Below, in pieces: positions 25,777-46,863 of a stretch of DNA of 60,473 bases. The translations under genes were made by a program, and so were the position numbers. Each line of letters starts with the position of its first letter. Position 1 is the stretch's first letter. The notes beneath the pieces are model-generated. The model ran no database searches. It was not told the DNA's origin and saw nothing but the letters and a program-made list of their open reading frames with translations. The stretch is from a bacterium (GTDB lineage: Bacteria; SM23-81; DAOVCL01), in assembly GCA_029932675.1 (NCBI GenBank), contig JAOZPP010000011.1, positions 1 through 60,473 on the forward strand, read 5' to 3'.

Positions 25777-25808
25777 ACCTGCGAGGGATTCCGTTAAAAG
25801 GTGGAAGG

Positions 25809-27632: not shown

Positions 27633-27698
27633 AGGCCCTCTAATCTTCGTTGTTCGAGATAGATTATATAGAGCCCTGGATGGGCTGTCAAGCCAATT

Positions 27699-28811: not shown

Positions 28812-28820
28812 TTCCGGAGA

Positions 28821-29885: not shown

Positions 29886-29965
29886 TCAGTAGACCTTATG
29901 ATTCCTTCCACATTCCTCTACGGTCGAAGTTCTGAGGCTCAAGACCGATAAGGAGGTCAAGCCAC

Positions 29966-30984: not shown

Positions 30985-32090
30985 TGCTGTGCCGGCTTAA
31001 GGTCCTTCAAAAGTAACGATTTCACCTGTTCGGCGGTTTCTTGGTCACGCTTGTCACCGGCCATCAGCTCCAGATACACCTGCACCGGGGAGGCCCACCA
31101 GAAATTCCCCTCCTGTCGGGCATCAAAGTAAACTGCTTCATCTTCCGTCTCAACCAGTTCAAGGTTTGGAAATCTATCCGTTTGATTTCCGGGCAGCCGC
31201 TCCAGCAACTCCCCCAAACGCGGACTGTAAACGGATAACACATCTCCTCGCTGCATCACAGCATATCGCCCAACCGAAGATATACCTGTAGCTACAAAGG
31301 GAAAATCCAATTTTTGCGATAATTCCAACAATAATTTCAGAATATTTTCGGTTGGTTCAGAAATCTTAAGACGCACACGTGCCGTTACAGTTGGTGTGAC
31401 ATAGTTATCACTCAATTTTTTCAAAAGCTTTGCGGGCTGGAGCAACCGAATTGTGCCCCTGCGTTCAACGATCAGGTCCTCCTCCAAGGTCCTCAACGCT
31501 TTCGATACTGTTGAAAGGCTCATGGGCTTCTTATCCCACCGGTTCACCAGCATGTTTCGTTGGTTAATCTCCGAACGAATCTCTTGAACAGCATTAAAGA
31601 CGGGATTGACGAAAAAGACCCTTCCAACCATCGAACTGTTTTTCCGATAGATGTTCTTGATTGGAGTGGATGAGGAGAAACGGTTCTTTCCACCGCCACG
31701 GAGCACGGCAAAGATACCCGGCACAATCACCACGCCGTTGCCGCAGAGGTCGATACCGCTGATCCCTTCTCGTTCCAGTTCCTGTAATCGATTTTCACTC
31801 AGAAAGGGCAAGAACAGCATTGGCAGGCAGTCATTTGGAAGGGCTAATGATTTCAACAGGTTGAGACCATCCTGGAAAGCCTTTGGTGTGGAGAGGGCCT
31901 TGCATTCGACCGCAAACTTTGCTACGTTTCCATGCCATGAGGCCTCAACCAGCGCGTCGAGACGGCGGTTTTTGGTTACTCTGGGCTCGCTTTCCAAAAA
32001 GCGAAAGGATAGCGGAGGCAGAAGGATTTTGCCTCTCCGCAACTCTTCGAGCATTTCCTTCTTTGTCGGTATTTTCCTGATTTTATCCAT
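30981..32090 (-). CDS. AbiEi-like antitoxin/regulator with nuclease-like N-terminus
   Basis: About 369 aa from ATG 32090; a TTG at 32102 is an alternative. The N-terminal half looks like a PD-(D/E)xK fold (RRLDALVEASW, then FAVECKALS) followed by ISGIDLCGNGVVIVPG. The middle part is a winged helix: QRNMLVNRWDKKPMSLSTVS then KALRTLEEDLIVERRGTIRL. The C-terminal domain fits AbiEi. Known AbiEi proteins bind inverted repeats at their own promoter and repress the pair; an ATTTTCCT/AGGAAAAT repeat lies over the start. Whether the nuclease-like domain is active is unknown. Confidence 0.65.
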   Translation of the reverse strand: MDKIRKIPTKKEMLEELRRGKILLPPLSFRFLESEPRVTKNRRLDALVEASWHGNVAKFAVECKALSTPKAFQDGLNLLKSLALPNDCLPMLFLPFLSENRLQELEREGISGIDLCGNGVVIVPGIFAVLRGGGKNRFSSSTPIKNIYRKNSSMVGRVFFVNPVFNAVQEIRSEINQRNMLVNRWDKKPMSLSTVSKALRTLEEDLIVERRGTIRLLQPAKLLKKLSDNYVTPTVTARVRLKISEPTENILKLLLELSQKLDFPFVATGISSVGRYAVMQRGDVLSVYSPRLGELLERLPGNQTDRFPNLELVETEDEAVYFDARQEGNFWWASPVQVYLELMAGDKRDQETAEQVKSLLLKDLKPAQQ

Positions 32091-32126
32091 TTTCCTGAAC
32101 AAGAAAATAACTCATTTTAGGAAAAT
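32089..32126. promoter_or_regulatory. Possible operator of the AbiE-like pair
   Basis: Inverted repeat ATTTTCCT (32089-32096) and AGGAAAAT (32119-32126), 22 bases apart, covering the start of the AbiEi-like gene. AbiEi antitoxins are known to bind inverted repeats in this position. Confidence 0.4.
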
Positions 32127-32160
32127 AAGCAAGTTTTATTTCACGGTGTGCTGTGGGGTT

Positions 32161-32201
32161 GTACCAAACAAGGAGACCATTGTCGGCGACCTGCTTGGCG
32201 A
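32161..32201 (+). repeat. Repeat B, right copy (41 bp)
   Basis: Partner of 30023-30064, same orientation, without the extra A. Codes AKQVADNGLL of the upstream PglZ-like relic on the minus strand. Confidence 0.65.
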
Positions 32202-32268
32202 TCAAGCTGATGAGATATTCAGTAACCACCTTATCCGCCATTATCCGTTTGCTCCTGGATAGTTCCAA

Positions 32269-32306
32269 AAACACGGAAAAACACGATTAAACGTGTGTCC
32301 GTGTTT
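32269..32306. repeat. Hairpin upstream of the AbiE cassette
   Basis: Outer arms AAACACGGA (32269-32277) and TCCGTGTTT (32298-32306); inner arms ACACG (32281-32285) and CGTGT (32292-32296). It could be a terminator for transcripts from hsdM or a relic of an inserted element. Confidence 0.5.
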
Positions 32307-32437
32307 ATCGTTTTTGATAATACGCGCCACGGCCTTTCCCAACAAGCTCCAACTTCCCTAGGTACCAGTAAATCGGGGGGTTCGGCGGCTCTTGGAGTAG
32401 CACTTGACGTGGTCCATCCAGAAGCCGCTGTGAGAAC

Positions 32438-32488
32438 GCAAGGGTTTGCACCATCCGCATCCCAGCAGTTATTCAAGTCAAGGTCACC
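32438..32488 (+). repeat. Repeat A, right copy (51 bp)
   Basis: Partner of 29748-29798 with five mismatches. On the minus strand it codes LDLNNCWDADGANPC, with TGG in place of the stop in the left copy. Beyond the repeat no zinc-ribbon sequence follows. Confidence 0.75.
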
Positions 32489-32516
32489 TCAGATTCCTTA
32501 GCCCGTAGACGGAGCG

Positions 32517-32881
32517 TCATGATCCGCCTCCCTGCCTGCGCCGAGGCAGGCTTTCCGTGCGGAGCATGATCAAATCCTGGTCAAGGCCGTGCCGCAGCAC
32601 ATCGAGCCGCCCGGAAACCGCGACCAGATGAGCCGCTTCTCTCTCGTGATGTTCAAGGGCTTTCTCTTCATTACCGAGAGCTGACTCAGGGTCAAGACTA
32701 CCGGATCCTTCATCGATGATATCGTATCCAGCTTTATGCCTCCGGCATAAACTACATCTGCGAGACCTAAAGCCAATGAGAGAGAAATAAGAAAACCTTC
32801 TCCTCCCGAGAGAATATTTACTGGACGCGTTGTTCCCGTCGGAAAAGTTGTCTGACCTTTATCTTTTCCATTCCAGTTCAT
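32517..32881 (-). pseudogene. SbcC/SMC-type ATPase C-terminal fragment, frameshifted
   Basis: From 32881 the minus strand reads [20 protein letters not shown], the ABC signature region of SbcC/Rad50-like ATPases. A shift near 32735 then gives [11 protein letters not shown], the Walker B/D-loop expected next (usually FIDEGFGSLDPES). The tail after this ([20 protein letters not shown]) is not SbcC-like and faintly recalls the end of HsdS proteins. About 120 codons are left of a protein that would normally be far longer. Lies directly after hsdM. Confidence 0.65.
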
Positions 32882-32920
32882 TGATTCCTCGGGACCGTTC
32901 TATCTTGACCTGCCAGACTC

Positions 32921-34444
32921 TCACGGTTCCAACTCCTTCACAATCTCGGCTCGCTCTTCCAGGTCGGCCAGCACGTCGCGGATCTGGTCCAGTGCCGACT
33001 CAAGGTCTTCGGCGATCTCGGCTGCGATGATGTGGGGATCGGGCAGGTCGGACGAATCTTCCAGACTCTCGTCACGCAGCCAGAAGATGTCAAGACTAGC
33101 CTTGTCCCGGCTTACGATTTCCTCGTAAGTGAATCTACGCCAGCGTCCGTTGGGGTTCTTCTCGGACCAGGTGGGCCTGCGCTTGTGCCGTTCGCCCGGC
33201 TTGTAACAGGCCACGAACTCGTCAAGGTCCGCCCGCGTCATGCGGTTCTGCTTGAGGGTAAAGTGCATGTTGGTGCGAAGGTCGTAGAACCAGACCGCCT
33301 TGGTCCAGGGCTTGGCGCTTGCTGGCTTGCGGTCAAAGAACAACACGTTAGCCTTGACGCCCTGGGCATAGAAGATTCCCGTAGGCAGTCTGAGCACGGT
33401 GTGTAACTCACATTCGTACATGAGCTTCCGGCGCACTGTTTCGCCGGCGCCGCCCTCGAACAGCACGTTATCGGGTACGACCACCGCGGCCCGGCCGTTT
33501 ATCTCAAGAAGGCTCTTTACATGCTGCACAAAGTTGAGTTGCTTGTTGGTTGTAGTTACCCAAAAATCTGGTCGAGAATAAGCCACAGCGTGCTTGTCGA
33601 GTTTGCCCTCCCCGTTGACAACGGTAATGCTCGACTTCTTACCAAAGGGGGGATTGGTCACCACCACCTGGTAATGTTCGGACGGTTCGCTGCGCAGGCT
33701 GTCGTCCACCCGGATGGGCGGATCGTGTTCGCCGTCGGCAGGTCCGATCCCGTGCAGGTAGAGGTTCATGGCACACAGGCGGGCTACGCCTTCCACCAGT
33801 TCCACGCCACGGAGCGCATCATATCGCAGGTGTTTTTTCTGGTCACGATCCAGCTTGAAGTTTCTTGCTATGTAGTTGTAAGCTGAGAGCAGAAAACCGC
33901 CGGTCCCGCAGGCCGGGTCGCAGATCACCTCGCCGGGCTGGGGCTGGATGCAGTCGACGATTGCATCAATGAGCGGCCGCGGGGTAAAGTATTGTCCCGC
34001 GCCGGATTTTATGTCCTGGGCGTTCCGCTCCAACAGTCCTTCGTAAGCATCACCTTTGACGTCGGCGTCCAGGGCCAGCCATGTTTCCTTGCCGATCAAC
34101 TCCACGATGAGTTGGCGCAGTTTGGCCGGGTCCTGGATCTTGTTTTGTGCTTTGCCGAAGATGAGGCCGAGCATTCCTTTCTGCTGGCCCAGGTGACGGA
34201 GCGTTTTGCGGTAGTGTTCATCGAGCCTGGTGCCTACCATACCCGGCTTAGCAAGGTCGCTCCAGCGATAGCCCTCGGGCACCGGATGTTCCCCGCCCAT
34301 CATCTCCACGCGCTCGTCGGCCATCTTGAGGAACAGCAGGAATGTGAGTTGTTCCAGGTAATCCTGATAGCTCAAGCCGTCGTCACGAAGGACGTTGCAG
34401 TAGGACCAGAGCTTTTTGACGAGGCGGTCGGTGTCGTTTGTCAT
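32921..34444 (-). CDS. hsdM: Type I restriction-modification DNA methyltransferase subunit
   Basis: 507 aa, normal length. N6-adenine methyltransferase subunit that works with HsdS. The helical N-terminal domain begins DRLVKKLWSYCNVLRDDGLS; the catalytic domain has GQYFTPRPLIDAIVD, SAM motif DPACGTGGFLLSAYNY and the N6-adenine motif NPPFGKK. Last intact gene of the hsd operon; its ATG overlaps the stop of the TOPRIM-like gene by four bases. Arginine codons are mostly CGN, unlike the host genes on either side. Confidence 0.95.
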   Translation of the reverse strand: MTNDTDRLVKKLWSYCNVLRDDGLSYQDYLEQLTFLLFLKMADERVEMMGGEHPVPEGYRWSDLAKPGMVGTRLDEHYRKTLRHLGQQKGMLGLIFGKAQNKIQDPAKLRQLIVELIGKETWLALDADVKGDAYEGLLERNAQDIKSGAGQYFTPRPLIDAIVDCIQPQPGEVICDPACGTGGFLLSAYNYIARNFKLDRDQKKHLRYDALRGVELVEGVARLCAMNLYLHGIGPADGEHDPPIRVDDSLRSEPSEHYQVVVTNPPFGKKSSITVVNGEGKLDKHAVAYSRPDFWVTTTNKQLNFVQHVKSLLEINGRAAVVVPDNVLFEGGAGETVRRKLMYECELHTVLRLPTGIFYAQGVKANVLFFDRKPASAKPWTKAVWFYDLRTNMHFTLKQNRMTRADLDEFVACYKPGERHKRRPTWSEKNPNGRWRRFTYEEIVSRDKASLDIFWLRDESLEDSSDLPDPHIIAAEIAEDLESALDQIRDVLADLEERAEIVKELEP

Positions 34445-35049
34445 GGGTAAACTTCTCCTTGATTGCCAATGTTTTGATTAAGAAAAATAAGCGCCCTTTC
34501 CAAAGAACCAAAACAAGGAACATCCGCCCTTTGCAGAGTCGGGAAATCGATTTTTCGCGTCATAGGTAACTGATCAATCGTAGGTTTGTATGAACGTCCT
34601 GGAGGTAATTGCTTCGAAAGCCATTCCTTTATACCCCGCCGTTCTTCCCAAGAGACTTTGTCCCACGGTGGAAAGCCCATCCTGCTGAGGCAGGGAAGAA
34701 AAAGCACCTCGTATTCGGGATGTAGCAGAATATAAGCCGTGGGAAACGGCAAATTGAGTGTGCGGAGCTGCCCTGCGATTTGCGGTGCCAGCTCCCTAGG
34801 ACATTTATCATCCTCATCCCTTAAGATCAGCAACGCCCCTGCATCGTCTTTTGTACGGACAAATTCAACGCCCGCCCTTACACCACCGCGCGTTTGCGCC
34901 TCCCACTGGTGGAGATTGAGCCAACGCCGTGGTTTAGCCCAAGCTAAAGAAAGCTTCAGTTTTTTATAACTTAGCCGCACGACAAGATTGTGTATAGCGT
35001 CTACATCCCCATGCCCTTCTACAAGAATATAACCTTTGGTCACTTTCAT
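34441..35049 (-). CDS. DUF4276-like (TOPRIM-type) protein paired with an AAA ATPase
   Basis: 202 aa. ILVEGHGDVDAIHNLV near the N-terminus is the Glu-containing first TOPRIM motif, and LLILRDEDDKCPREL fits the second, DxD-like motif. I take it as a DUF4276-type TOPRIM-like nuclease. It follows the AAA ATPase with a 4-base overlap and precedes hsdM with another. ATPase plus TOPRIM pairs act in abortive infection (PARIS, split OLD-like systems). Inference: a second defence module carried inside the restriction operon. Confidence 0.7.
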   Translation of the reverse strand: MKVTKGYILVEGHGDVDAIHNLVVRLSYKKLKLSLAWAKPRRWLNLHQWEAQTRGGVRAGVEFVRTKDDAGALLILRDEDDKCPRELAPQIAGQLRTLNLPFPTAYILLHPEYEVLFLPCLSRMGFPPWDKVSWEERRGIKEWLSKQLPPGRSYKPTIDQLPMTRKIDFPTLQRADVPCFGSLERALIFLNQNIGNQGEVYP

Positions 35050-36185
35050 TCTTCCTTAGAGTTGTCAAAGAGAGAGAGTTGAAGATCGCCTGATACAAAA
35101 AGCTCGCTGAGACGTAAAAGACTCTTCCGAACCGGCTCCAATTGCTTTGGGGTTACCTTCCTGACATCGGTTTTGCCACTCACCCGCTTAACCACAAAAA
35201 TCACATCCCTTTTAAGATCGGCAACATCAAGAATGATTGGGCTGTGGGTTGTGACAATGACCTGAGAAACCTCACTGGCTTGTCGTAGATAGTCGTAAAG
35301 CATAGGAAGAGCACCAGGGTGTACTGTAAGTTCGGGTTCTTCTACACCGATGACTGGTAGCGAAGGTTTTTGTAAAAGGGCAGTAAGAAGACCAGCAACG
35401 CGGAGTGTCCCGTCTGACTGCTGGGCTGCTTCAAACCAACGCTTCCCCTTGCGTGCCCTGACTTGCTGTTTGAATTCCGCAATCAGATGACCTGCTGCAC
35501 TGGTCACCTGAACATCTTCGATATCTCCAGTTAATTTTTTTAAGCCAGCGACAAGATCCTCCTTCGCCTCTCTATCCTTGATGAGTTCCCGTAGAATTGA
35601 TATCCAATTTTCCCCATGTCTCTTCATAGGACGAGCCGTGTCAAACCGCTGGGGAATGCGAAGCGTGTCTGGAAAAATTGAATAGACAGTTATAACAGAC
35701 AAAAAATCTACCAATGGCTTGAACTGCTTAGTTCCACCTAACGCGGTCAATGCAAGTGATTGTTCGTCCATGCGTGGAGTTATTCCCTCTGGTCCACTCC
35801 AGTTATTGCCCTGGCGCTGAAACTCATAAACTGTTTCTTCCTGTTGGACAACTGCAACCTCCATTTTGACCCTGTACTCCTCAAGTCTGTCTCCTGTGAG
35901 AGTAAAAGCGTATTTGGCAGGGGCGGAGTTGAGGGAGAGTCGTAACTCGATATGTACATCAAAAGGACGACCATGGCTGCGTCGGCGTACGCTGTCAATT
36001 CCGTTCCGGTGAGTGACAGCGGCTGGCAGTCCTAATGTAACTGCGTCACGGACAAAAGAGAGTGCATCTAAAACGTTTGACTTGCCTGAGCCATTTGGTC
36101 CGACAAGAATCGACAATCGTCCAAGTTGAATCCGAACATTGGGACCGAGACTTCGGTAGTTTGATATGATGAGTTCTTTTATCAT
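35046..36185 (-). CDS. AAA (AAA_21, OLD-like) ATPase
   Basis: 379 aa. ATG 36185 is chosen: AAGGAG lies upstream and the protein opens MIKELIISNYRSLG as OLD-type ATPases do; the frame is open further but overlaps hsdS. Walker A GPNGSGKSN (about residue 31), signature-like QSDGTLR, Walker B VIGVEEPELT with catalytic Glu, and H-loop TTHSP. These ABC-type ATPases dimerise and usually pair with a TOPRIM nuclease; here the next gene supplies that. Starts two bases after the hsdS stop, so it depends on the hsd transcript. Confidence 0.85.
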   Translation of the reverse strand: MIKELIISNYRSLGPNVRIQLGRLSILVGPNGSGKSNVLDALSFVRDAVTLGLPAAVTHRNGIDSVRRRSHGRPFDVHIELRLSLNSAPAKYAFTLTGDRLEEYRVKMEVAVVQQEETVYEFQRQGNNWSGPEGITPRMDEQSLALTALGGTKQFKPLVDFLSVITVYSIFPDTLRIPQRFDTARPMKRHGENWISILRELIKDREAKEDLVAGLKKLTGDIEDVQVTSAAGHLIAEFKQQVRARKGKRWFEAAQQSDGTLRVAGLLTALLQKPSLPVIGVEEPELTVHPGALPMLYDYLRQASEVSQVIVTTHSPIILDVADLKRDVIFVVKRVSGKTDVRKVTPKQLEPVRKSLLRLSELFVSGDLQLSLFDNSKEE

Positions 36186-36187
36186 GA

Positions 36188-38041
36188 TTACGGCTCCTTG
36201 TGTTTTTTTCTTGGATTGTTGGATGCGCAGGTCATTAACTCCCGCTCTGCCCTGATGCGTTCGAGCAGTATGCTTGCGGGTTCGCCTGCCTGCCGCGTCC
36301 GGCCGGCAGCGTACTCGCGCTTCAACCATTTAAGGCCGAAGCCCGTCTTCAACTCCTTTTCCCTTTTTACGGCGTCTTCGAGCGAGTCGAACTCCTTCCA
36401 ATGAATAAGTTTCACCGGAGGATGCCTTCTCGTCCACTCGGCCCCTCTGCCGCTCGCATGCAACTTCCAGCGTTCTTCGACGTTTTCCGTTTGACCGATG
36501 TAGATACTGCCGTCGTCACATTCCAGCGCATATACGAACCACTTTCCCGGCCGCGGCGCAGGCAGGTCGCTTGGATCCTGGTCCACCAGTTTGCCCTCGA
36601 AGGCCCACTTGAGGATAGATTGGCGGAGGCGGTGCGCACGGTGTTCTTGAGTTGCCACCTCATTTGTTACACTGTCCTCGACGGACAACAGTTTTTCGAC
36701 CTCTTCCACGATTCGAATCTGTTCAGATAAGGGAGGAAGAGGAACGACTAATTCATTGAGATGCCTTTGGTTCACGTACGGCTGTCCTGTTCCCCCAGCG
36801 TTGGCATTCAGATTCTTTAAACTCATGACCATACGCCAATAGCCCAGATGTACTGAAGGCGGACAGTAAACGGCGTAAATTGCGTTATCCGTTATCCAGG
36901 CAGGACCTGTGGTTAAATGCACGTTCCCGCAATGTGCTCCGACCCTCCCTATCACTAGAGTGGGGGTGTTTATGAGTGCAACATTATGATATCCAGTTAT
37001 GCCATTACCTCCATAGACAGGGACATCCCCCTTCTCGTGGCTTTTTTGGGGGAGAAAACTACCACTCGACCAAGCGAAGAACTGGCCGGGGCTCGCCCAG
37101 CACCAGCCTTCCGGGAGTTCGGGGAGGCCGTCGGTATTTGGCGGAGCGGGTTCCTTGTACTTCTCCTTCCACTTGTCGTTCCTGGGGAGGAAGCGGCGGT
37201 ACTCCTTTTCGGGGATGTTCTGCCATTCCTCGGGGGTGAGTTTTTCGCCGCGCTTGAGCGGCTTGCCGGCCTTCTTGCGGCGCTCCTTGGCGGCCTTTTG
37301 CTTCGCTTTTTCGACGATCTTCTTCCACTCGGCCTCTTCCCAGCGCTTACGGCGCTCTTTCAGAATGCGTTCGAGCAGCACCGAGGCGGGCTCGTAATCT
37401 CGTCCTTCCTTACGGGCGAGTTCTGCTTCAGTGGGCACCAGGCGGCCCTCGACTGCGGCCTTGAGGACGCTCTTGCGGTAGCGCTCGAGGTTCTTCTTGA
37501 CCCGCTCCAGCGCGGCAATGGCCGCATCCAGCCGGGAAAGGTAACTCTCAATTGCCTCGACGATGCGGCGTTGTTCAGGGAGGGGAGGAAGTAATAAAGT
37601 AATCGTGCTGAGATTCCTTGCGTTGAGATTCGCTCGGCCAATCCCAGCACTTAGTGCCCATGCCTGCTTCCGGTACGCATGAGAGTTCACGAAATAGTGT
37701 AGCCAGTGACTGATTTCCCTGAGAGGTGGTTTCCCTCGAATCAGATATGAAGCAAAAACAGCAGCAGGAGGACGGCGAATCATGCAGGCTTTCTCAATTG
37801 AGCCAGTTCGAGCAAATACAATGTCGCCGTCATTGAGTTTGTATTTTTCAAAGTCGTCAGTTGTCAGTTCACAACTCGGAACGGTATCCCAGTTGATTAA
37901 ACCATCATGTATGTCGGTTATCCGAAGAAATCGTGGCCCTTCTGTATCATGGGTAGCACTCGTTGTTAGGCCATATTGGAGCTTCCCTAGGAGCTCACCG
38001 ATCGTGGTACTAACCCACCCTCTCGGAAGTCGTCTACTCAT
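36188..38041 (-). CDS. hsdS: Type I restriction specificity subunit with inserted GIY-YIG nuclease
   Basis: 617 aa; a normal HsdS has 400-550. The first target-recognition domain is about residues 1-160 and ends in the conserved helix LPPLPEQRRIVEAIESYL. A long Lys/Arg-rich linker follows, then the second recognition domain (LPELPEGWCWAS to LPPLSEQIRIVEEVE). Near the C-terminus the family phrase KLVDQDPSDLPA is cut by about 90 residues forming a complete GIY-YIG nuclease domain (WFVYALECDDGSIYIGQT), after which the phrase resumes as GEPASILLERIRAERE. The protein should guide HsdM and HsdR to a bipartite site. Whether it still folds with the insert is unknown, but the frame is open. Confidence 0.92.
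   Translation of the reverse strand: MSRRLPRGWVSTTIGELLGKLQYGLTTSATHDTEGPRFLRITDIHDGLINWDTVPSCELTTDDFEKYKLNDGDIVFARTGSIEKACMIRRPPAAVFASYLIRGKPPLREISHWLHYFVNSHAYRKQAWALSAGIGRANLNARNLSTITLLLPPLPEQRRIVEAIESYLSRLDAAIAALERVKKNLERYRKSVLKAAVEGRLVPTEAELARKEGRDYEPASVLLERILKERRKRWEEAEWKKIVEKAKQKAAKERRKKAGKPLKRGEKLTPEEWQNIPEKEYRRFLPRNDKWKEKYKEPAPPNTDGLPELPEGWCWASPGQFFAWSSGSFLPQKSHEKGDVPVYGGNGITGYHNVALINTPTLVIGRVGAHCGNVHLTTGPAWITDNAIYAVYCPPSVHLGYWRMVMSLKNLNANAGGTGQPYVNQRHLNELVVPLPPLSEQIRIVEEVEKLLSVEDSVTNEVATQEHRAHRLRQSILKWAFEGKLVDQDPSDLPAPRPGKWFVYALECDDGSIYIGQTENVEERWKLHASGRGAEWTRRHPPVKLIHWKEFDSLEDAVKREKELKTGFGLKWLKREYAAGRTRQAGEPASILLERIRAERELMTCASNNPRKKHKEP
36287..36556 (-). mobile_element. In-frame GIY-YIG domain insertion within hsdS
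   Basis: Codes about residues 496-585 of HsdS. Motifs: VYALE (GIY equivalent), SIYIGQT (YIG), Arg in ERWKLHASGRGAEW, Glu in EKELKTGFG. The domain matches stand-alone URI/YhbQ-like GIY-YIG proteins over their whole length and lies exactly between two halves of a conserved HsdS phrase. Possibly a homing-type insertion; inferred. Confidence 0.75.
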
Positions 38042-38078
38042 CCCACCAGCACCTCGTTCAACTTTTCAATACACATGC

Positions 38079-39257
38079 TCATACCCTCCCCCTTCTCTCC
38101 AGCTCTCTGCGCGTTTTTTCGATCTCGGCAGCAAGGAGTTTTTCGTCGGGAAGGGCAGTCAGATACTTGCTAACGAGCATCTTGTTTTCCAGACCTTCTG
38201 TGGCGTACCGCACCAGCGATTTGCCCTTGTCCGAGCAGAGGATGATCCCGACAGGAGGGTTCTCGTCCTCACGGGTCCAATGCTCTTTCGCGTAGTTCAG
38301 GTATACGTTCATCTGACCAGCGTCGGCATGGGTGAAGCGGCCCAGCTTCAGGTCGATAATCACAAGGCAGCGTAGACGGCGGTGAAAGAAAACAAGGTCT
38401 ATCCGATACCACTCGTCGTCGATGCGGAGGCGTCGCTGGCGCCCCACGAATGCAAAATCTCCTCCCAGTTCCAGCAGGAATGTCTCCAGATGCCGGATGA
38501 GAGCTTCTTCCAGATCGCTTTCAGAGTATTCATCTTTCAGATCGAGGAATTCGAGAACCAGGGGGTCCTTGATTTCTTCCTCGGCACTGACAATATCGGC
38601 CTCCGTCCTCTCTCGGCCCTTTTTCAGCATAGCTGCCTTGTTCTTCGACAAGGCGGTGCGCTCGTAGAACTGCGAGTCGATTTGCCGCTTGAGCTGTCGC
38701 ACCGACCAGCCGCCCCGGAGCGCCTCGGCGTGATAGAATCGAATGGCCTCCTCCGAGCGAAGGCGGATGAGCAATACGTAGTGAGACCATGGTAAGGGAA
38801 AGGCCTGGGCCAGCTTGGTGATATCGATTGACAGGTCTTGCCTATCAGATTTCCGCAACGCTGTTGCGGAATTGAGCGACACTGTCGCTCGTTTTCCTTT
38901 CCCAGCATCGCCTGTGGATTTGCTCGACAGTGTCGCTCGAATTTGTTCAGGAGGAAACAGGAGGTAGAAGCTTCTGAATCGCGCCAGGTTGTGCCGGGAG
39001 AACCCCCTGCCGAAACGCGCGATGAGTTCTTTAGAAAGGCGCTTGAGCAGTTCCTCACCGTACGGGGCTCTTTCTTGTCCACCCTGCTCGAACTCTACGA
39101 TACGCCGCCCGATCTCCCAGTAGGTCGCGGTCATGATCGCGTTGATCGACCGGGTCGCCGTGCGCCTGGCCGCCTCGAGCAGTTTTTCTATGCCGCCGAC
39201 AAGGTTGTCAAACTCTGTTATGTTTGCCGGCTTTGTTTCCGTTTTCTTTCTACTCAT
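38079..39257 (-). CDS. DUF1016/YhcG-family PD-(D/E)xK nuclease (first copy)
   Basis: 392 aa. The N-terminal DUF1016_N helical domain reads TATYWEIGRRIVEFEQGG and RFGRGFSRHNLARFRSFYLL; the C-terminal nuclease domain has WYRIDLVFFHRRLRCLVIID followed by LKLG, where the usual ELK is DLK. Members are often found in defence islands and are thought to be nucleases. The linker (about residues 105-140) is lengthened by palindromic repeats (38851-38940). It lies between hsdR and hsdS; its ATG overlaps the hsdR stop side by four bases, so it was taken into the operon. Confidence 0.85.
   Translation of the reverse strand: MSRKKTETKPANITEFDNLVGGIEKLLEAARRTATRSINAIMTATYWEIGRRIVEFEQGGQERAPYGEELLKRLSKELIARFGRGFSRHNLARFRSFYLLFPPEQIRATLSSKSTGDAGKGKRATVSLNSATALRKSDRQDLSIDITKLAQAFPLPWSHYVLLIRLRSEEAIRFYHAEALRGGWSVRQLKRQIDSQFYERTALSKNKAAMLKKGRERTEADIVSAEEEIKDPLVLEFLDLKDEYSESDLEEALIRHLETFLLELGGDFAFVGRQRRLRIDDEWYRIDLVFFHRRLRCLVIIDLKLGRFTHADAGQMNVYLNYAKEHWTREDENPPVGIILCSDKGKSLVRYATEGLENKMLVSKYLTALPDEKLLAAEIEKTRRELERRGRV
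38851..38940. repeat. Palindromic repeats inside the first DUF1016 gene
   Basis: TTCCGCAAC/GTTGCGGAA (38851-38871, 3-base loop), GAGCGACA/TGTCGCTC (38874-38890) and a partly matching inverted copy of the latter at 38922-38938. All in frame within the linker between the two domains. Confidence 0.75.
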
Positions 39258-42118
39258 GCTGCCAGCACCTCATTCAGTTCCTCAATCAGGGGTTTTAAGT
39301 CGGTTCCGAACACCTGCACTGCCTTGCCCAGGCCGCCGCGCTCGGCGAAAGGAGTCAGGTCGAAGTCTTCCATGTTGATTTCCAGGCTCTGGGCCACGTG
39401 GTCGCGGATCATCTCAAGCCAGCGGCGCTGCTCGTCGGTGAATACCCGGCCCCTGTCCTCCTGCTGCGCCATCCAGTTCTCGAAACGCTCGCGCACCTTG
39501 TCGGCAAAGGGCACGAGTTCGTCTTCCTGCCGTAGGGCATAGCGCACAAGCGAGACGATGTCGGTCAACCTGCGCTCGGCGCTGGCGCCTCGGACCTTGT
39601 TCTTCTCAAGTATCTCGTAGGCCTTCCACAACCGCTCCTCGGTCCAGCGCCGGGGCGGAGCGCTGATGGCCTCGTGCAGGGCCTTGATGTCCTTGTATCG
39701 CAGGCGTTCCTTGTAGGGCCTGGAGTAGAAGAACTGGAGCGCATCTATCTCGTCGCGGTGTTCTATCAAGAACTGTTCGAAGGACCGTACCAGTGCGCGG
39801 GCCTTTTCCTTTGCTTCCTCGTCGAAGCCCGAGAAGGTGAGTTCGTCCCGGCTAACTTCGTCGATTATCTGCTCCACGATGCGCTTGACCTCGATAAGCG
39901 TGGAGCGAAGCTTGGGATTCGTGGCTAGGGGTTTGACCGCCTCGGCCAGGAGTTTCTTTTGCGCCGCCTGGACCTGTTCCTCTGTGGGCTTTTCGTCCGC
40001 TTTCAAGCCGTGCTTTTCCCTCGCGGCCTGTATCGCCTCGTCCGGGTCAAGGGCGGTGACGATGGACCGGGCGAGAGAACCCAGGGTGTGCCCTTCGGCC
40101 ACCTTGGCGATGCGCTCGTATTCCTTGGGGCCGCATTGCTTGTCCAACCGCGCCAGGCGGCTAGCGAGCGAGGAGAGATAATCGGGATGCGTTCCGCCCG
40201 CGGCCACGTGCTCCAGGAGTTTCTTGAAGGATACGCTCTTCTTGCGCTCAAGGGGTTGGGTATCGGCAAGCGGGGTCTCGACGATTCCGACGCAGTCCAC
40301 GAGGACGAAGTGTGTTTTGTTGGCTGCGTCGGGCGTGACTGCCTTGAGGTCGGTCGGGTCGATGACCCGCACGCCTCGGCCCTTCATCTGCTCGAAGAAC
40401 ACCCTGCTCTTAACCGAGCGCATGAACATCACTATCTCCACCGGCTTGATGTCCGTGCCGGTGGCAATCATGTCCACGGTAACCGCGATGCGAGGGTCGT
40501 AACTGTTGCGGAACTCCTGGATCAGGTCCTGAGGCTTCTTGCCGGTGGTCTTGTAGGTGATTTTCTGGCAGAAAGCGTTGCCGCGGGCGAACTCCTCACG
40601 CACGATCTCCACGATGTCCTCGGCGTGGGAATCGTCCTTGGCGAAAATCAAGGTTTTCGGCACTTCCTTCCGGCCGGGGAAGATTTCTGTAAAGAGTTTC
40701 TCCTTGAAGGTGCGAACTATCAGCCGAATCTGGTCCTTGGCCACCACACTGCGGTCGAGGTCCTTGGCCGTGTAGGAGATATCCTCGTCGGGTTGCTGCC
40801 AGCGTACCTCGCGGGTCAGGCGGTTCCGCAGGCCGATCATGGTACCGTCTTCGGCCTCGATGACCGCGCCCTTCTCGGTAATGCGGGTCCGGATCCGGTA
40901 GATCTCAAAGTCCACGTTCACGCCGTCGGCCACGGCCTCTTCGTGGCCGTACTCCATGACCAGGTTCTGGTTGAAGAAACCGTAGGTGTGTTTGGCCGGC
41001 GTGGCGGTGAGGCCAATCAGGAAGGCGTCGAAGTACTCAAGCACCTGCCGCCAGAGCGAGTAGATGGAGCGATGGCACTCGTCGATGATGATGAAGTCGA
41101 AGTACTCGGGTGGGATGGCCCGGTTATAGACCACCGGAAAAGGTTCTTTGCCGAGGTCGTCTTCCTGCTCGAAGGCCGAGAGTTCGTCTCGCTCCGGGTC
41201 GTAATCCGGTTCGCCCTTTAGCATGGAGTAGAGCCGCTGGATGGTGGAAATCACTACCTTGCTCGAATCGCCGATGGTGTTCGATGTGAGCCGCTGTACG
41301 TTGTAAAGCTCGGTGAACTTCCTGTTGTCATCGGGGGAGCGGAAGCCTTGAAACTCTTTCTCCGCCTGTTCCCCCAAATTGCTGCGGTCGACCAGGAAAA
41401 GTACACGCCGTGCCCCCGCATACTTGATGAGACGGTAAATAGCAGTAATCGCCATGATGGTCTTGCCGGAACCGGTTGCCATTTGTATGAGGGCGCGCGG
41501 GCGGTTCTCCTTGAGCGAACGTTCCAGGTTCAGCACCGCACGGACTTGATTGGGATAGAGGAAACCTTGCTGTAAGGGAGGCATGTTCTGAATGCGACTA
41601 CGCAAGGTTGATGGTCTTGATCCGTAAGTACTCGGCTTTTCCGCCACTTTCAATAAATTGGAGAATTCCGAAACCCACTCGCTCATGGAGTCCGCAGCAA
41701 GCCACTCCGCTATTGTTTCAGGTCGATGAAATTGAAAAACGTGACGACTTCGTGGTTGAGGATCCAAGTAATTGGTGAATCTGGTTTCGACACCGGTGCT
41801 GATGTAGCAGAAGGGCAACGGTCGATACGGGGTGTCGAGTTCTGTGGGCAGGCCGTCAGAGTACTTCTCGGCCTGTACCTCTACTCCTGTGAGAGGGAAC
41901 CCAACTTTCTTGGCCTCGACCACACCAACGGCCTTGCCGTCAACAAAGAGCAGGTAATCGGCACGACCGTGCCCCTTATCAAGATTGAACTCGCGCACCG
42001 CTACGCCACGGCCTGCCGAGAGATTCAGATCAGCCATGTCCTGGACAACCCAGCCTGACTGAGTGAGTTGGGTGTCGATCTGAAGGCGAGCTTCTTGCTC
42101 GGGGGGCATTGATGTCAT
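39254..42118 (-). CDS. hsdR: Type I restriction endonuclease/translocase subunit
   Basis: 954 aa, normal for the family. N-terminal nuclease domain with GHGRADYLLFVDGKAVGVVE then AKK (the D...ExK site). Superfamily 2 helicase motor: Walker A MATGSGKTI, DEAH-type box IIIDECHRSIYS, motif III LTATPA, motif VI region FEQMKGRGVRV. The C-terminal helical domain binds the methyltransferase complex. It cuts unmodified DNA after ATP-driven translocation. Its ATG overlaps the preceding remnant by four bases, giving translational coupling. Confidence 0.95.
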   Translation of the reverse strand: MTSMPPEQEARLQIDTQLTQSGWVVQDMADLNLSAGRGVAVREFNLDKGHGRADYLLFVDGKAVGVVEAKKVGFPLTGVEVQAEKYSDGLPTELDTPYRPLPFCYISTGVETRFTNYLDPQPRSRHVFQFHRPETIAEWLAADSMSEWVSEFSNLLKVAEKPSTYGSRPSTLRSRIQNMPPLQQGFLYPNQVRAVLNLERSLKENRPRALIQMATGSGKTIMAITAIYRLIKYAGARRVLFLVDRSNLGEQAEKEFQGFRSPDDNRKFTELYNVQRLTSNTIGDSSKVVISTIQRLYSMLKGEPDYDPERDELSAFEQEDDLGKEPFPVVYNRAIPPEYFDFIIIDECHRSIYSLWRQVLEYFDAFLIGLTATPAKHTYGFFNQNLVMEYGHEEAVADGVNVDFEIYRIRTRITEKGAVIEAEDGTMIGLRNRLTREVRWQQPDEDISYTAKDLDRSVVAKDQIRLIVRTFKEKLFTEIFPGRKEVPKTLIFAKDDSHAEDIVEIVREEFARGNAFCQKITYKTTGKKPQDLIQEFRNSYDPRIAVTVDMIATGTDIKPVEIVMFMRSVKSRVFFEQMKGRGVRVIDPTDLKAVTPDAANKTHFVLVDCVGIVETPLADTQPLERKKSVSFKKLLEHVAAGGTHPDYLSSLASRLARLDKQCGPKEYERIAKVAEGHTLGSLARSIVTALDPDEAIQAAREKHGLKADEKPTEEQVQAAQKKLLAEAVKPLATNPKLRSTLIEVKRIVEQIIDEVSRDELTFSGFDEEAKEKARALVRSFEQFLIEHRDEIDALQFFYSRPYKERLRYKDIKALHEAISAPPRRWTEERLWKAYEILEKNKVRGASAERRLTDIVSLVRYALRQEDELVPFADKVRERFENWMAQQEDRGRVFTDEQRRWLEMIRDHVAQSLEINMEDFDLTPFAERGGLGKAVQVFGTDLKPLIEELNEVLAA

Positions 42119-42294
42119 CTATGCCTCCTCCCCATCCCCCTCGAATACTTGAATGCCTTCTCATAAAATGCCGAGGAAGTGCTCCCGTCGCGCTCGTCGT
42201 TTTCAAAGGTCATCCCGAGGCATTCCACCAGACCTTGCGGCTTGGCGGGCGTCTCCAGATTGAACAGGTTTTGGTTTTCGCTTCTCTTTGGCAT
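42115..42294 (-). pseudogene. N-terminal remnant of a large DNA methylase, coupled to hsdR
   Basis: 59 codons from ATG 42294. It reads LFNLETPAKPQGLVECLGMT then FENDE and ends in an unrelated tail. From memory this opening belongs to large adenine-methylase-like proteins in DUF6079/PglZ clusters, where FENDE continues into the catalytic part. Here it is cut and its stop overlaps the hsdR start (ATGA). Moderate to low certainty for the family. Confidence 0.4.
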
Positions 42295-42309
42295 ATCAGC
42301 TTGTCCCTC

Positions 42310-42416
42310 AATGCGCACCACGCATTGAAATATGCATTGAATGAACGCTAATGGGCGGAGGAATGGCGCAGCGCCATTTCCCGCGCCATTTATGCCGCGT
42401 AATGGCACAAAGAATG
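42310..42416. repeat. Cluster of AATGxCGC palindromes
   Basis: AATGCG/CGCATT (42310-42326) and a perfect AATGGCGC-A-GCGCCATT (42362-42378), with further half copies GCGCCATT (42383-42390) and AATGGC (42401-42406). They lie in the 211-base gap between the truncated AlbA_2 gene and the methylase remnant, upstream of hsdR. Either an operator or a REP-like element. Confidence 0.55.
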
Positions 42417-42505
42417 GATTCTCACCATTTCTTTATCCATTGTCACTGCCCTCGTTGTACTGCCAACGGGCCCCCCGACCGATCCCTGAAACAAAAGCCG
42501 CCTTC

Positions 42506-43024
42506 TCACGACTCAGGTCGGCCAGGGATTTCGGCTGCTGTGAAGTCGGTTTCTCCCGTTTCCACCATGATCCGCCGGCGCAGTGTTCCGGTAAGCGGCT
42601 GACAGTCTTTGCCTACACGAATCTTTCCCTTGCCAGAAGTGTCGGTATAAGGCGGAAGGCCCGGATATATCTGCATGACGATGAGCCGCTTTGTCCTTTC
42701 CGGGACCGGAAGCTCCTGGAATACAGGAGTCAGCTTGGGGTCCGTGGAGTCATAGACCGCCTTTTTCAGTCGATTGATATCGACCTCTGGTGGCACACCC
42801 CGTATGGCGTTGGATCGTCCTACCACCTTGTCATTGACACCGAAGACCACCGTTCCGCCGCCGCCGTTGGCCATGCAAATAGCCATCTCAATGACCAAGG
42901 CGACAGCATCCTTCCTGCTGCGAGTATTCCACTCCTTGAAGTCGAGATACTGGTCTTCCAACGCATTAGCGGGCTGATGGTCAAACTCATCAAGGAGTTC
43001 TCTTATTTCAGAAAGATTCCTCAT
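42506..43024 (-). CDS. AlbA_2-domain protein, truncated
   Basis: 172 aa. AlbA_2 (Schlafen-type, divergent AAA_4) domain: LDFKEWNTRSRKDAVALVIE, GGGGTVVFGVNDKVVG. The protein stops at AAEIPGRPES, but in the next frame the sequence runs on as SLADLSREKAAFVSGIGRGA before a stop at about 42422, so a frameshift near 42525 probably cut it. Full-length relatives such as the gene at 45004 have some 500 residues. Directly follows the DUF6079-type C-terminus with a 2-base gap. Probably non-functional or reduced. Confidence 0.65.
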   Translation of the reverse strand: MRNLSEIRELLDEFDHQPANALEDQYLDFKEWNTRSRKDAVALVIEMAICMANGGGGTVVFGVNDKVVGRSNAIRGVPPEVDINRLKKAVYDSTDPKLTPVFQELPVPERTKRLIVMQIYPGLPPYTDTSGKGKIRVGKDCQPLTGTLRRRIMVETGETDFTAAEIPGRPES

Positions 43025-43026
43025 TT

Positions 43027-43500
43027 CTACTCCAGTACGATTCGGACTTTGTCGGGCTCATGGCCCTTGGTGAGTTCATCCAGGTATTCCTCAAAGCGTT
43101 TCTTCATCTCCGCCGGCGTCGCCGGTGAGCCGCCCTTGAGAAGGGCTGCGCGCAGATCCTCGGTTTTCACCGCGACCTTAACCAGCCCGGAGAGCACCTT
43201 CTGCAGGGCGTGAATGAAATCCTGGCCCAGCTCGTCGGGCAGCTTGCGTTCTTTGAGGAAGGCGTCCACCAGCTTCCTGGGCTCGGGCTTGTGCAGGTCG
43301 AGGTTGCCGCGGGTGGTCGGGTCCTCCAGGTTGGCCAGCAGCGTCTGGGTCCAGTCGTCGAGGAGCTTGTCCAGCTCCGTGTCCAGGTGGTCGAACATGG
43401 TCGCTGCAGGTGCCTCCGTGCTGGGCCGGAAGCTGCAGTGCGGGCAGACCGGCGAGGCATCGAGTTCTTCAACTTTCATAATTCTAATCAGCCCCTTCAC
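43027..43500 (-). pseudogene. C-terminal part of a DUF6079 (PglY/BrxC-like) protein
   Basis: 157 codons. From about residue 16 it reads [16 protein letters not shown], a CxxC metal site, then a helical domain ([40 protein letters not shown]) ending RIVLE. I know this as the end of large (over 1000 aa) DUF6079 ATPases of BREX type 2 and similar clusters; here the ATPase part is missing. The first 9-15 residues come from the junction. A GTG at 43500 overlaps the restored stop of the second DUF1016 gene (GTGA), so it may still be translated. A 23-codon copy of the same end lies at 46514-46585. Confidence 0.55.
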
Positions 43501-44632
43501 TCTCCTATCTCCCGTATCTTTTCTTCCAAAAACCTCTGTATCTCTTCCTTTTTGGGGAGTTCAAGCTGGTACTGGAGACAAAGAGATTATTGTCCATACC
43601 CGCCAGGGCGTATTCCACAAGCGTGTGATCCTTTTGAGTGCAGAGCAGAATTCCTATAGGCTGATTGTCTCCCTCCCTCATCATATTCTTTTTGAACCAG
43701 CTCACATAGGTATTAAGCTGGCCAATGTATTCGTGAGTAAACGCATCCACCTTGAGCTCGATCAGGACATGACACTTCAGGATTCGATGGTAGAAAACCA
43801 AATCTATAAAATTGTAGGTATCGCCGATAAGTACGCGCTTCTGTCTGGCCTCAAAGCAGAATCCATGCCCCAGTTCCAGCAAGAACTCCTGGAGCCTGTC
43901 GAGCAGTTGATCCTCCAAATCGGATTCGCTCATTACTTCAGCAGGTTTCAGCCCCAGGAATTCAAAGACATAAGGATCGCGTATAACAAGTTTCGGTTCG
44001 GCTTGTTCTGCGCCGGATTGGACGAGTTCGGCGAGTTTCTCTTTATCTCGAGAAAGACCCGACCGTTCGTAATAGAGGCTCGCGATCTGGCGTTTCAGCT
44101 CCCTTACCGACCAGTTGCCCCGAATACATTCGATCGTATAGAAAACCCGCTTAAAATCCTCGTCGAGGTCAATTATCTGCTCCAGATGGCTGTACGACAG
44201 CCGTTGGATGAGTTTATCCGGTGGAATCCTCAATTGTGGGGATGCTGTTCCCACTTTCTTTGGCTCCAGGGTCTTGGCCACACTGTCTTGCAAGTCAAAG
44301 GGCAATTGCTTCCGCAATTGTGGGGACAGTGTCCCCACAATCTCCGGGTACAAACGGTAAAAACGGAGGTAACGGTATAGCTGGCGACGGTTGCAATTGC
44401 TGACTTTGAGATCAGCAAGACGCCGTGCCAATTCAACGAACAATTTGTCTCCATATTTCGCTCGATCAATTCCGTGCAACTCGTATTCATGGATATATGC
44501 CCCAATCAACCAATTGCGCATAGTAAGACTGACATTGACTGCTCTGCCTGCCCGTGCAGCAAGGTGTTCATGCGTTTGGTGAATTGCACTCACCAAAGAT
44601 CTGAAATCTAACCCATCCATCTTATTGACCAT
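43497..44632 (-). CDS. DUF1016/YhcG-family nuclease (second copy), 3' frameshift
   Basis: 375 aa as read, with an apparent frameshift near 43573. DUF1016_N domain with [20 protein letters not shown]; nuclease domain with [20 protein letters not shown], so the D...ELK site is intact. After LFVSS the reading becomes Ser/Lys/Arg-rich and stops at 43505; with one extra A it becomes [19 protein letters not shown] and stops at 43497-43499, which is the usual family ending and overlaps the next GTG. The active site lies upstream of the shift. Linker palindromes at 44230-44341. It overlaps the four-helix-bundle gene by 11 bases. Confidence 0.8.
44230..44341. repeat. Palindromic repeats inside the second DUF1016 gene
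   Basis: A perfect palindrome ATTGTGGGGACA-G-TGTCCCCACAAT at 44317-44341, and a degenerate copy near 44232-44253. They code two similar peptides, [13 protein letters not shown] and VGTASPQLR, in the interdomain linker. Confidence 0.8.
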
Positions 44633-44948
44633 AACCTAACCTTTCCAGGTTCTGGCGAATTACCGCATCGAGTTCTTCTACCTCGGCCATCTGCTCGTAA
44701 AGCTGCGCTTGGACTTCCGCTGTTGACCCCTTGGCGATATAGAGGAACTGGGTAAATTCCCGGTTACTACCCCGGTCAAAGCCCTCGGCTATGTTTGACA
44801 TGATGGAGACAGCAGCACGTCTTATCTGATCACGAAGGCCAAAGTCATGAGAGAATGCCCCGTTGCCAGTTACGCTGTAAATGGCCTTGGAAAGCGCCCG
44901 CGCTTTCTGCCAGGCGTCAATGTCTTCAAATTTCTCTATCCGTGCCAT
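44622..44948 (-). CDS. Four-helix-bundle protein (S23 ribosomal / IVP family)
   Basis: 108 aa from ATG 44948, where the family start [20 protein letters not shown] is found; an ATG at 45014 would add 22 residues. The signature [20 protein letters not shown] and the [13 protein letters not shown] helix place it in the family first seen in intervening sequences of 23S rRNA genes. These small proteins are spread with mobile DNA and have no proven function. Lies between the AlbA_2 regulator and the second DUF1016 gene. Confidence 0.85.
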
Positions 44949-45003
44949 CTTCAGTCCGCTCAGGTCTCGGGTCTTATCGACTCGCGACCCGACACTAACT
45001 TGG

Positions 45004-46500
45004 TCATTCACCATCTCCTTCGATTCCCAATAGGAACTTGCGCGCTTTCTCCGTCAACCGGTACTTCTGCTTGCTGCTCCGTGGCTTGTCGGGGACGGTC
45101 ATCTCGATGAGACCGGCATCCAGAAGTGGACGTAAGATGGTTTTGCGGAACCGGGTCCTGTTTGTCTGTTCCGCGACCTTCATCAAGATCTCTATCGGTA
45201 CAGGATTACTTGCGATTTCAAGCAGGGGAATAAAGATGTCGCTTGGGACAGACTTGGGACAGACTTGGGACAGACTTGGGACAGACTTGGGACCAATTTC
45301 CCCGGCGACCTCCGCCTTGTCGGGTAAGATCGCAGGCCAAAAGGTCACATAGACAGAGCCCGCTTGCTCCTGCCAAGTGGGTGGAGGGTTCCCATTCTCC
45401 CTGCACCAGTCGAGGATATTCAGGGTGCCGGAGCCCCAGCGCTCAATGATGCCAGCTCGGTAGAACACGTTGGCAATAATTGGATTCCAGGGTTTGGACT
45501 CGTGGGGCTGAGCCAGTTTCTCTGGGGTAATGCCGAAATGAAAAGTGCCTGGATTGGTGATTTCCAGGTGGTCGTCGTACATGGCAACAGCCACAGCCCC
45601 GCCCGGAGTTGTGTAGTCGCGATGGCAGATAGCATTTGCTATCGCTTCGCGTGTAGCACGCGGCGGGTACCAGGGTTGGTCTTCGCGCACCATCTTGCCG
45701 GGCACGACTCGACCGGCGATGGGCACGTGGTCCATCAGGAAGGATTCAGCCCGGCGAAGGAGGGAAAAGGCATGCCCCCAGTACTGTCGGTTATCAGTAA
45801 AGTCCGCCAGGCGATTTCTGCCCCGGAATCGGGCAAGACGAATTTCCAGTTGGGGGTAGAGGGGCTTGAGGCGGTTTGCCTTTCCATAGAGGGCTACGGC
45901 GGCGTTGAGTAGCTTGTCATCATGGATGAGCTCCAGACCACGAAGGATTGACTCAATATCACGTCGGTCAGTGGCTTCCAGACGTCCAAGTCGAATCGCG
46001 TTGTCCAAGGTAATTTGGATTTCCTCGGCGTCCAAGTCATCAATGGTGACACCATCCGGCACAGGTTCGTTCTCCCAGCGCCGGGTTGCGTGAAGACGTT
46101 CCAGCAACCGCCGATTGTACTCCTCACGAGGCATGAGGATGGTGGTTGGGCCGTGCCGGAGGTAAGGACGACCATCGAAGGTATAAGGACCTCTACCACC
46201 AGGAATTGACAGTACGATTGCCGCCAGATCGCCTTTTAGATGCACCGTCTCAATGTCCGGAAAGGCGGGCGGCTCAATCTTTCGGAGTTCTGCAGAAATA
46301 TCTTCGAGTGTTTTGGCAGAAACCTGTTGGCCAACAAGCTCACCATTGTGGGTTACACCAAAAACGACGAAACCACCAAGCCCGTTTAGCATGGCGCAGA
46401 CTGTCTTAGCAGCACTAGTACGCTGTCCCGTAGAACGCTTAAACTCCATACGTTCCGTCTCACCTTCGTGGACAAGCGATTTCAACTCCGATAGATTCAT
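45004..46500 (-). CDS. AlbA_2-domain ATP-binding regulator
   Basis: 498 aa from ATG 46500 ([20 protein letters not shown]). The N-terminal AlbA_2 domain, likely DNA/RNA-binding, has [16 protein letters not shown]. The middle has a HATPase_c_4-type module ([32 protein letters not shown]). The C-terminal 80 residues are winged-helix-like ([20 protein letters not shown]). Between the last two, a 52-bp tandem repeat (11-bp unit) codes [12 protein letters not shown] repeats. Known relatives are transcription regulators or defence-associated. Begins just after the DUF6079 end relic, the same order as at 42.5-43.5 kb. Confidence 0.82.
45242..45293. repeat. 11-bp tandem repeat (4.7 copies) in the AlbA_2 gene
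   Basis: Unit CTTGGGACAGA, four identical full copies and most of a fifth, without errors. Unit length is not a multiple of three, so gain or loss of a copy shifts the frame. Confidence 0.95.
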
Positions 46501-46513
46501 GAAAACTGTCTTC

Positions 46514-46585
46514 TCACTCCAATACAATCCTCATCTTACCAGGATCATCTCCCCTGGTGGGTTCATCCAGGTATTCCTCAAAGGG
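46514..46585 (-). pseudogene. Last 23 codons of a DUF6079 protein (relic)
   Basis: Directly after the TAG of the HTH gene, and in the same frame, the minus strand reads PFEEYLDEPTRGDDPGKMRI then VLE and TGA. Compare [20 protein letters not shown] at the end of 43027-43500. A deletion joined the HTH gene to the last codons of a lost DUF6079 gene. Confidence 0.7.
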
Positions 46586-46783
46586 CTATCCTTTGACCAT
46601 TTCATTACCATAGGGGTCTTCCAGCCAGCGGTCGATGGCCTGCTTGCGGAAGCGCCAGTGGCGGCCGACCTTCTGGCCGGGGACCTTCCCTTCCCGCACC
46701 AATTTGTAGAGGGTCGATTTGGGTATCTTTAGGTAAACAGACAAATCTTCGATGGTCAGAACTTCGCTCGGTTTTTCACTCAT
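46586..46783 (-). CDS. Excisionase-family (MerR-like) helix-turn-helix protein
   Basis: 65 aa from ATG 46783 (GGAGG eight bases upstream). VLTIEDLSVYLKIPKSTLYK is the helix-turn-helix and KVPGQKVGRHWRFRKQAIDR the wing of the excisionase/HTH_17 family. First gene of the defence island; a strong promoter with a 10-bp tandem repeat in its spacer lies upstream, so it may control its own operon. No integrase is nearby, so an excision role is unlikely. Confidence 0.85.
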   Translation of the reverse strand: MSEKPSEVLTIEDLSVYLKIPKSTLYKLVREGKVPGQKVGRHWRFRKQAIDRWLEDPYGNEMVKG

Positions 46784-46834
46784 CGGAAGCACCTCCCGGG
46801 CCACAAGGCCGAATTTGTGTGATTGGATGAATAT

Positions 46835-46863
46835 AATTTACAGTTGGTGACAGTTGGTGTCAA
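46835..46863 (-). promoter_or_regulatory. Strong promoter of the defence island with tandem operator-like repeat
   Basis: On the minus strand TTGACA (46858-46863), 17 bases, TAAATT (46835-46840). The spacer is a perfect 10-bp tandem repeat, ACAGTTGGTG twice (46840-46859 on the plus strand). Confidence 0.8.

Follow-up and report, generated by a model that had tools for sequence, protein, structure and literature searches.

How can the end of a gene be present twice in a locus from which the gene itself has gone? The question was raised by a minus-strand region of a 60,473-nt bacterial contig (the window, meaning the whole stretch analysed), in which a sequence-only reading had placed two C-termini of a DUF6079/PglY-like protein, each directly followed by an AlbA_2 gene, and had taken them for scars of an older BREX-like cluster that was duplicated and then overwritten by restriction genes. 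We consider it likely that the region is a relic of a BREX type 3 locus, from which the core has been deleted and in which accessory effectors survive together with the promoter and regulator.

The brxC ends and the missing core

In order of transcription, the locus comprises the promoter, the HTH gene, brxC tail A, AlbA2a, IVP, YhcGa, brxC tail B, AlbA2b, the start of pglXI and a type I restriction operon (Table 1). An HTH gene, a brxC end, a slot gene and a pglXI start are thus found in the order and on the strand expected of BREX-3, along with the promoter.

Table 1. Coordinates of the relic's features in the window, with the supporting evidence.
Feature	Position	Strand	Evidence
Promoter/operator, BREX-3 type	46834-46863	(-)	motif match upstream of HTH
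HTH_17 (excisionase-type) regulator	46586-46783	(-)	PF12728 E 3.5e-17
brxC tail A, final 23 codons of DUF6079/brxC	46517-46585	(-)	alignment and tblastn E 4e-7
AlbA2a, 498 aa, intact	45004-46500	(-)	PF04326, PF13749, PF21247 above cut-off
IVP, 23S rRNA-intervening-sequence-type (four-helix bundle) protein	44622-45014	(-)	PF05635 E 3.8e-29
YhcGa, DUF1016_N and YhcG_C PD-DEXK nuclease, frameshifted C-terminally	43505-44632	(-)	PF06250 E 8.9e-53
brxC tail B, about 150 C-terminal residues of DUF6079/BrxC	43030-43470 (ORF 43027-43500)	(-)	PF19557
AlbA2b pseudogene, N-terminal 172 aa of a gene of about 570 aa	42509-43024	(-)	PF04326 E 2.9e-17
pglXI N-terminal remnant, about 46 codons, frameshifted, runs into hsdR	42149-42294	(-)	PglXI alignment and PADLOC
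hsdR, first gene of type I restriction operon	39254-42118	(-)	NCBIfam and PADLOC
Type I restriction operon (hsdR, YhcGb, hsdS, HEC-01A/B, hsdM) filling the rest of the locus	32921-42118		

A profile search of 43027-43500 (-), which had been proposed with the sequence-only reading, matched tail B to positions 1088-1238 of 1238 in PF19557 (DUF6079; E 2.4e-55); the PADLOC BrxC model gave E 4.9e-57, and the translation was 80% identical to BrxC residues 1094-1243 of one related locus (L009) and 91% identical to that of another (L006). Tail A, which reads PFEEYLDEPTRGDDPGKMRIVLE up to its stop codon and aligns to the brxC tail, lies in the reading frame of the HTH gene immediately past the HTH stop codon; when the last 60 residues of its relatives were used as tblastn queries, it matched their final 22 residues with an E-value of 4e-7, and the similarity is therefore not due to chance. 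Both ends on the minus strand were accordingly confirmed, by PF19557 for tail B and by tblastn for tail A; their extents had to be revised, as tail A amounts to 23 codons and the homology of tail B begins at about 43470, not at 43500. That the whole arrangement is a chance similarity or an assembly artefact is barely credible: the assembly does consist of 116 contigs, and the frameshift in YhcGa might be a sequencing error, but the E-values of 1e-55 and 4e-7 argue against it, as do the many independent genomes with this anatomy.

A genome-wide search revealed no DUF6079 beyond the two tails, so that full-length BrxC is absent and the ATPase body is gone, as the sequence-only reading had it. 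Within the window, neither brxF nor any remnant of PglZ or BrxHII gave a significant tblastn match; the PglZ remnant implied by that reading was not recovered. Full PglXI is likewise missing at the locus, where just the roughly 46 frameshifted N-terminal codons are left; hsdR starts where this remnant stops, in agreement with the proposed overwriting by restriction genes. Contig 21 of the same genome has a divergent PglXI-like gene, which is part of another locus. With every core protein missing or reduced to ends, BREX function is impossible from the window locus.

Two observations were made beside the relic. Directly downstream of hsdM, a short piece (window 32570-32881) resembles by eye the C-terminus of an SbcC/SMC-type ATPase. 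In the same genome, contig 21 carries at 22000-40000 an unusual and apparently intact BREX-like locus (L147), with a 1277-aa ATPase-sized protein that has no Pfam match and a weak match to the BrxC C-terminus, a nucleotidyltransferase-type gene, a PglXI-like methylase (785 aa), an Mrr_N protein, PglZ (888 aa) and BrxL (482 aa); the pairing of PglXI with BrxL is not among the BREX types in those portions of the literature that were compared.

The BREX type 3 ancestor and its surviving parts

For comparison, 80 genome loci whose brxC ends are related were collected (loci are given L numbers throughout). In intact loci, the gene order is HTH, brxF, brxC (DUF6079), an accessory slot, pglXI, brxHII and pglZ, with a brxC of about 1243 aa, a pglXI of about 940-1030 aa and one or more slot genes; PADLOC identifies BrxF, BrxC, PglXI and BrxHI/HII in them. 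A Roseomonas mucosa plasmid annotated by NCBI reads brxF ('BREX-3 system'), DUF6079, RNA-binding protein, methyltransferase, helicase and pglZ ('BREX-3 system'). Intact HTH-brxF-DUF6079-AlbA_2-methylase-helicase-pglZ clusters, for which the sequence-only reading had advised a search, were found in other genomes, and relatives of AlbA2a, AlbA2b, YhcGa and IVP all occupy the slot behind an intact brxC. Because intact DUF6079-AlbA_2 clusters exist, neither of the outcomes named as speaking against that reading (no DUF6079 match in 43027-43500, or no genome in which DUF6079 and AlbA_2 genes adjoin) was encountered. The supposed first codons of a methylase behind the second module proved to be those of pglXI: read in two frames (42294-42149), they are 62% identical over 34 aa to intact PglXI (E 3.6e-9), and reading across the frameshift yields PADLOC matches to MTase_II/PglXI with E 9e-7/2.5e-5. 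The decayed BREX-like cluster was thus borne out, and its ancestor was BREX type 3.

The upstream region has been preserved, as had been claimed of both promoter and gene order. The promoter consists of TTGACA, a 17-nt spacer with the direct repeat ACCAACTGTC/ACCAACTGTA, and TAAATT; across loci the repeat is a 10-bp-spaced AACTGT direct repeat and the -10 consensus is TA(A/T)ATT. The motif is conserved upstream of 14 HTH genes and is perfect in the window, which scores 25/25 for the motif that it shares with 13 further BREX-3 loci or relics; the best score among shuffled sequences was 15. Its chance expectation in the window is 0, for a pattern derived from the same set with the window included; as the motif was read by eye from these same sequences, the estimate is optimistic. 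Lying between the -35 and -10 elements, the 10-bp-spaced repeat resembles an operator at which the excisionase-type HTH protein would bind. The HTH gene itself is 65-84% identical to the HTH genes of intact brxF-brxC loci (e.g. L013, L015 and L023) and, to judge by this similarity, is the orthologue of the BREX-3 leader gene upstream of brxF.

That an AlbA_2 gene follows each tail, intact at 45004-46500 and truncated in the second case, was supported by PF04326 (E 2.9e-17 for each of the two). AlbA2a, whose ATG lies at 46500, combines Schlafen/AlbA_2 (PF04326), HATPase_c_4 (PF13749) and winged-helix (PF21247) domains, and relatives that are 80-81% identical sit behind intact brxC in L014 and L018. 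AlbA2b is 82% identical to residues 2-173 of a 572-aa gene in L009, and its relatives behind intact brxC show 77-82% identity; it is internally deleted, with a C-terminal remnant in a different frame at approximately 42436-42540. IVP shares 72-80% identity with slot genes of L010, L043 and L046, and genes 58-64% identical to YhcGa lie behind intact brxC in L023 and L076. Since YhcGa and AlbA2b are both damaged, erosion of the locus is continuing.

Some details of the slot genes were noted separately. The IVP gene is preceded (window 44950-45000) by a leader with a GTCGCGAGTC/GACCCGAGACC-type repeat, and the same leader and gene stand behind brxC in L043, L046 and L047, as if the two travelled together. 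The frameshift of YhcGa lies about 23 codons before its end (window 43497-43560); the unshifted frame ends at 43497, closing in GTGA, which overlaps the GTG with which the tail B ORF begins.

The presence of two tails of the same gene on the same strand, with an AlbA_2 gene after each, had suggested a tandem duplication of one DUF6079-AlbA_2 module, followed by the decay of both copies. We regard this as very improbable: AlbA2a and AlbA2b are only about 26% identical and belong to separate families, each of which is found behind intact brxC elsewhere, and the tails, which are 77% identical at the DNA level, are not each other's closest relatives, since the tails of 12 other genomes come closer to tail A than tail B does, which ranks 13 of 75. 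Given the divergence of the AlbA_2 genes and the rank of tail A, the duplication in the sequence-only reading is unsupported; a better explanation is two distinct units of brxC end and effector, or two BREX-3 loci in tandem that deletion has cut down.

Orphan brxC ends in other genomes

As queries against all loci, 53 full-length BrxC proteins were divided into slices of 60 residues each (20 slices). Across the 80 loci, second copies of brxC came from the last of the 20 slices only, in L034, L038 (where brxC itself is degraded), L061, L077 and the window; extra slice matches outside the automatic gene call in L016, L019, L078 and L081 occur because brxC is split or uncalled there. A profile of the last 90 BrxC residues, which retrieves orphan tails genome-wide, was then applied to 395 Desulfobacterota genomes and yielded 28 complete ends plus 9 partial ones, almost all of the latter reaching the final codon. 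From the same genomes, the first 90 residues, which are more conserved, retrieved 28 complete and 2 partial matches; with a middle slice there were 26 complete matches and no partial ones. With complete and partial matches sorted by hand from the match tables, the excess of orphan tails had a Fisher p of only 0.09 when compared with the start, 0.008 with the middle and 0.006 with the two pooled. Verrucomicrobiota held one orphan tail at a weak E-value (G688) and one probable tail (G545) alongside 6-7 complete ends, and Pseudomonadota held three beside 6-7 complete; some relics lie on short contigs of binned genomes.

Several of these loci resemble parts of the window. L119 has the same type of junction, with the BREX-3 promoter and HTH gene leading into the brxC end, and in an Aeromonas caviae record the tail adjoins a transposase-like reading frame, directly before a pglXI-like start. 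In L138 (7202-14163), brxC fragments are followed by an hsdR/M/S type I operon and then by a brxHII fragment (90% identity); judged by these remains, a type I restriction operon has taken the place of a BREX-3 locus here too, and L138 parallels the other half of the window.

Orphan tails are followed by the same classes of gene as intact brxC: AlbA_2 genes (L034, L038, L077, L120 and both window tails), HEC-01A/B (L118, L121, L122, L134, L135 and L136), YhcG (L116 and L123), Fic-like genes identified by eye (L117, L119 and L124), a PtuA-like (Septu-like) ATPase (L133) and a 162-aa gene (L061). For most of them, a homologue is the first gene after intact brxC in another genome. Most genes behind orphan tails are intact, with about 12 reading frames that stay open for 340 codons or more, although brxC is mostly cut to 18-55 codons.

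A near-identical leader, TAGGAACCRCRAATGGACACGAAT, was also observed after the brxC end before different slot genes (AlbA_2 and YhcG), at L077 6884-6898, at L123 6205-6219, in L011 and in L008; this short repeat may mark insertion points.

We considered that the brxC end might be kept by selection because it supplies the effector with a ribosome-binding site or with a leader for translational coupling. In several orphans, a GGAG within the conserved final codons (TTGGAGTAG) lies 5-8 nt from the effector start, as in window tail B (ctggagTAGAAATG) and in L038; in 16 of 18 orphans, no more than 20 nt separate the tail end from the effector start, and conservation to the consensus climbs toward the stop codon (0.60, 0.70, 0.82). 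The last trend, however, is partly a product of detection, the nearest GGAG of tail A is 16 nt from the ATG, and a Shine-Dalgarno sequence overlapping the tail is not enriched (10/18 versus 20/51, p=0.28). The close spacing, which at first appeared enriched (p=0.011), is shared by intact loci in which the effector comes first (24/31, p=0.45), and with this control Shine-Dalgarno retention was rejected as the cause. Selection on the brxC end for translation of the effector is possible but doubtful.

The alternative that the brxC 3' end and its effector or effectors move as a unit, with the tail as the left end of a mobile cassette, draws on three observations. L118 and L122 are 79% identical in nucleotide sequence across the tail, HEC-01A and HEC-01B only, with unrelated flanks; the second tail of L077 ranks 73 of 75 in similarity to its own brxC and resembles the tails of other genomes; and in L135 the unit of tail and HEC-01A adjoins a tRNA-Val gene. 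Yet tail length varies by case from 18 to 150 codons, no integrase, terminal repeat or ends were identified, brxC genes with the same cargo do not have more similar tails, and the right edge of L122 resembles by eye a pglXI leader, as would be expected from erosion in place. We hold such a cassette to be unlikely. tRNA genes as insertion points were discarded, as a tRNA stands beside the tail in L135 only, and so was the exchange of cargo by recombination in the brxC end: among 52 brxC genes with their first slot gene, same-cargo tails were not closer after correction for similarity of the bodies.

Proposed history, known systems and meaning

Under the reading that we prefer, a BREX type 3 relic, deletions would have taken brxF and the body of brxC and spared the promoter and HTH gene and everything from the brxC end onward. 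This would have left an operon of HTH, AlbA2a, IVP and YhcGa, presumably driven by the former BREX promoter. The brxC end would stay because deletions that remove the core must halt before the effector start, at or just past the brxC stop codon. The two different ends would mean that a second effector unit was imported from another BREX-3 locus, or that two loci stood in tandem, before erosion set in. The effector genes have been retained, and their survival suggests that they may be useful, and function independently, without BREX; AlbA2a is predicted, from the known biology of its family, to act as a Schlafen-type tRNA/RNA endonuclease.

The window shares with BREX type 3 (BrxF, BrxC/DUF6079, PglXI, BrxHII, PglZ) the regulator, promoter/operator, brxC end, slot, pglXI start, gene order and strand, and differs in that the core proteins are absent or mere ends; as a locus, it represents a known system in decay. 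PMC12839542 describes Schlafen-HATPase-wHTH genes with links to core loci of BREX and BREX-related systems, reported from 1017 or more taxa, places these genes among backup effectors and states that Schlafen-linked systems can cleave tRNAs; PMC8565348 puts brxU between brxC and pglX in pEFER. AlbA2a has the same architecture (AlbA_2, HATPase_c_4 and winged helix) and the same slot as the accessory effectors covered there, but those lie within intact BREX loci, whereas the core of the window locus is gone. HEC-01A/B, PADLOC candidate defence genes, occur behind orphan tails and also in the window's restriction operon, although the window copy is inside the type I operon and not behind a tail. 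The window HTH belongs to the same superfamily as MAD1 of the methylation-associated defence system (MADS), and its orthologues head BREX-3 operons; an assignment to MADS was rejected, as the match to the MAD1 model NF047737 reached 59.6 bits, below the cut-off of 80.

Orphan brxC ends found no mention in the literature searched, which contained no preprints and few subscription papers and was in part available only as excerpts; as far as that literature goes, a recurrent orphan brxC end before surviving accessory genes is undescribed. A broader proposal is that the brxC 3' end is a functional module boundary, at which units of tail and effector are mobile or selectable and can load onto, stack in and outlive BREX-3. 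We give this little credence; if it were true, orphan brxC tails would mark effectors that left BREX and work alone.

Accessory genes within BREX have been proposed as backup effectors of the core (PMC12839542), and natural loci that lack the core and keep an intact effector bear directly on whether such genes can do without BREX. Orphan brxC tails offer a simple means of finding natural core knock-outs by sequence in genome collections, and they show where Schlafen, HEC-01, YhcG, Fic and Septu-like genes that could not otherwise be placed came from. As like scars stand before the same helper genes in other bacteria, such helpers can outlive their system.
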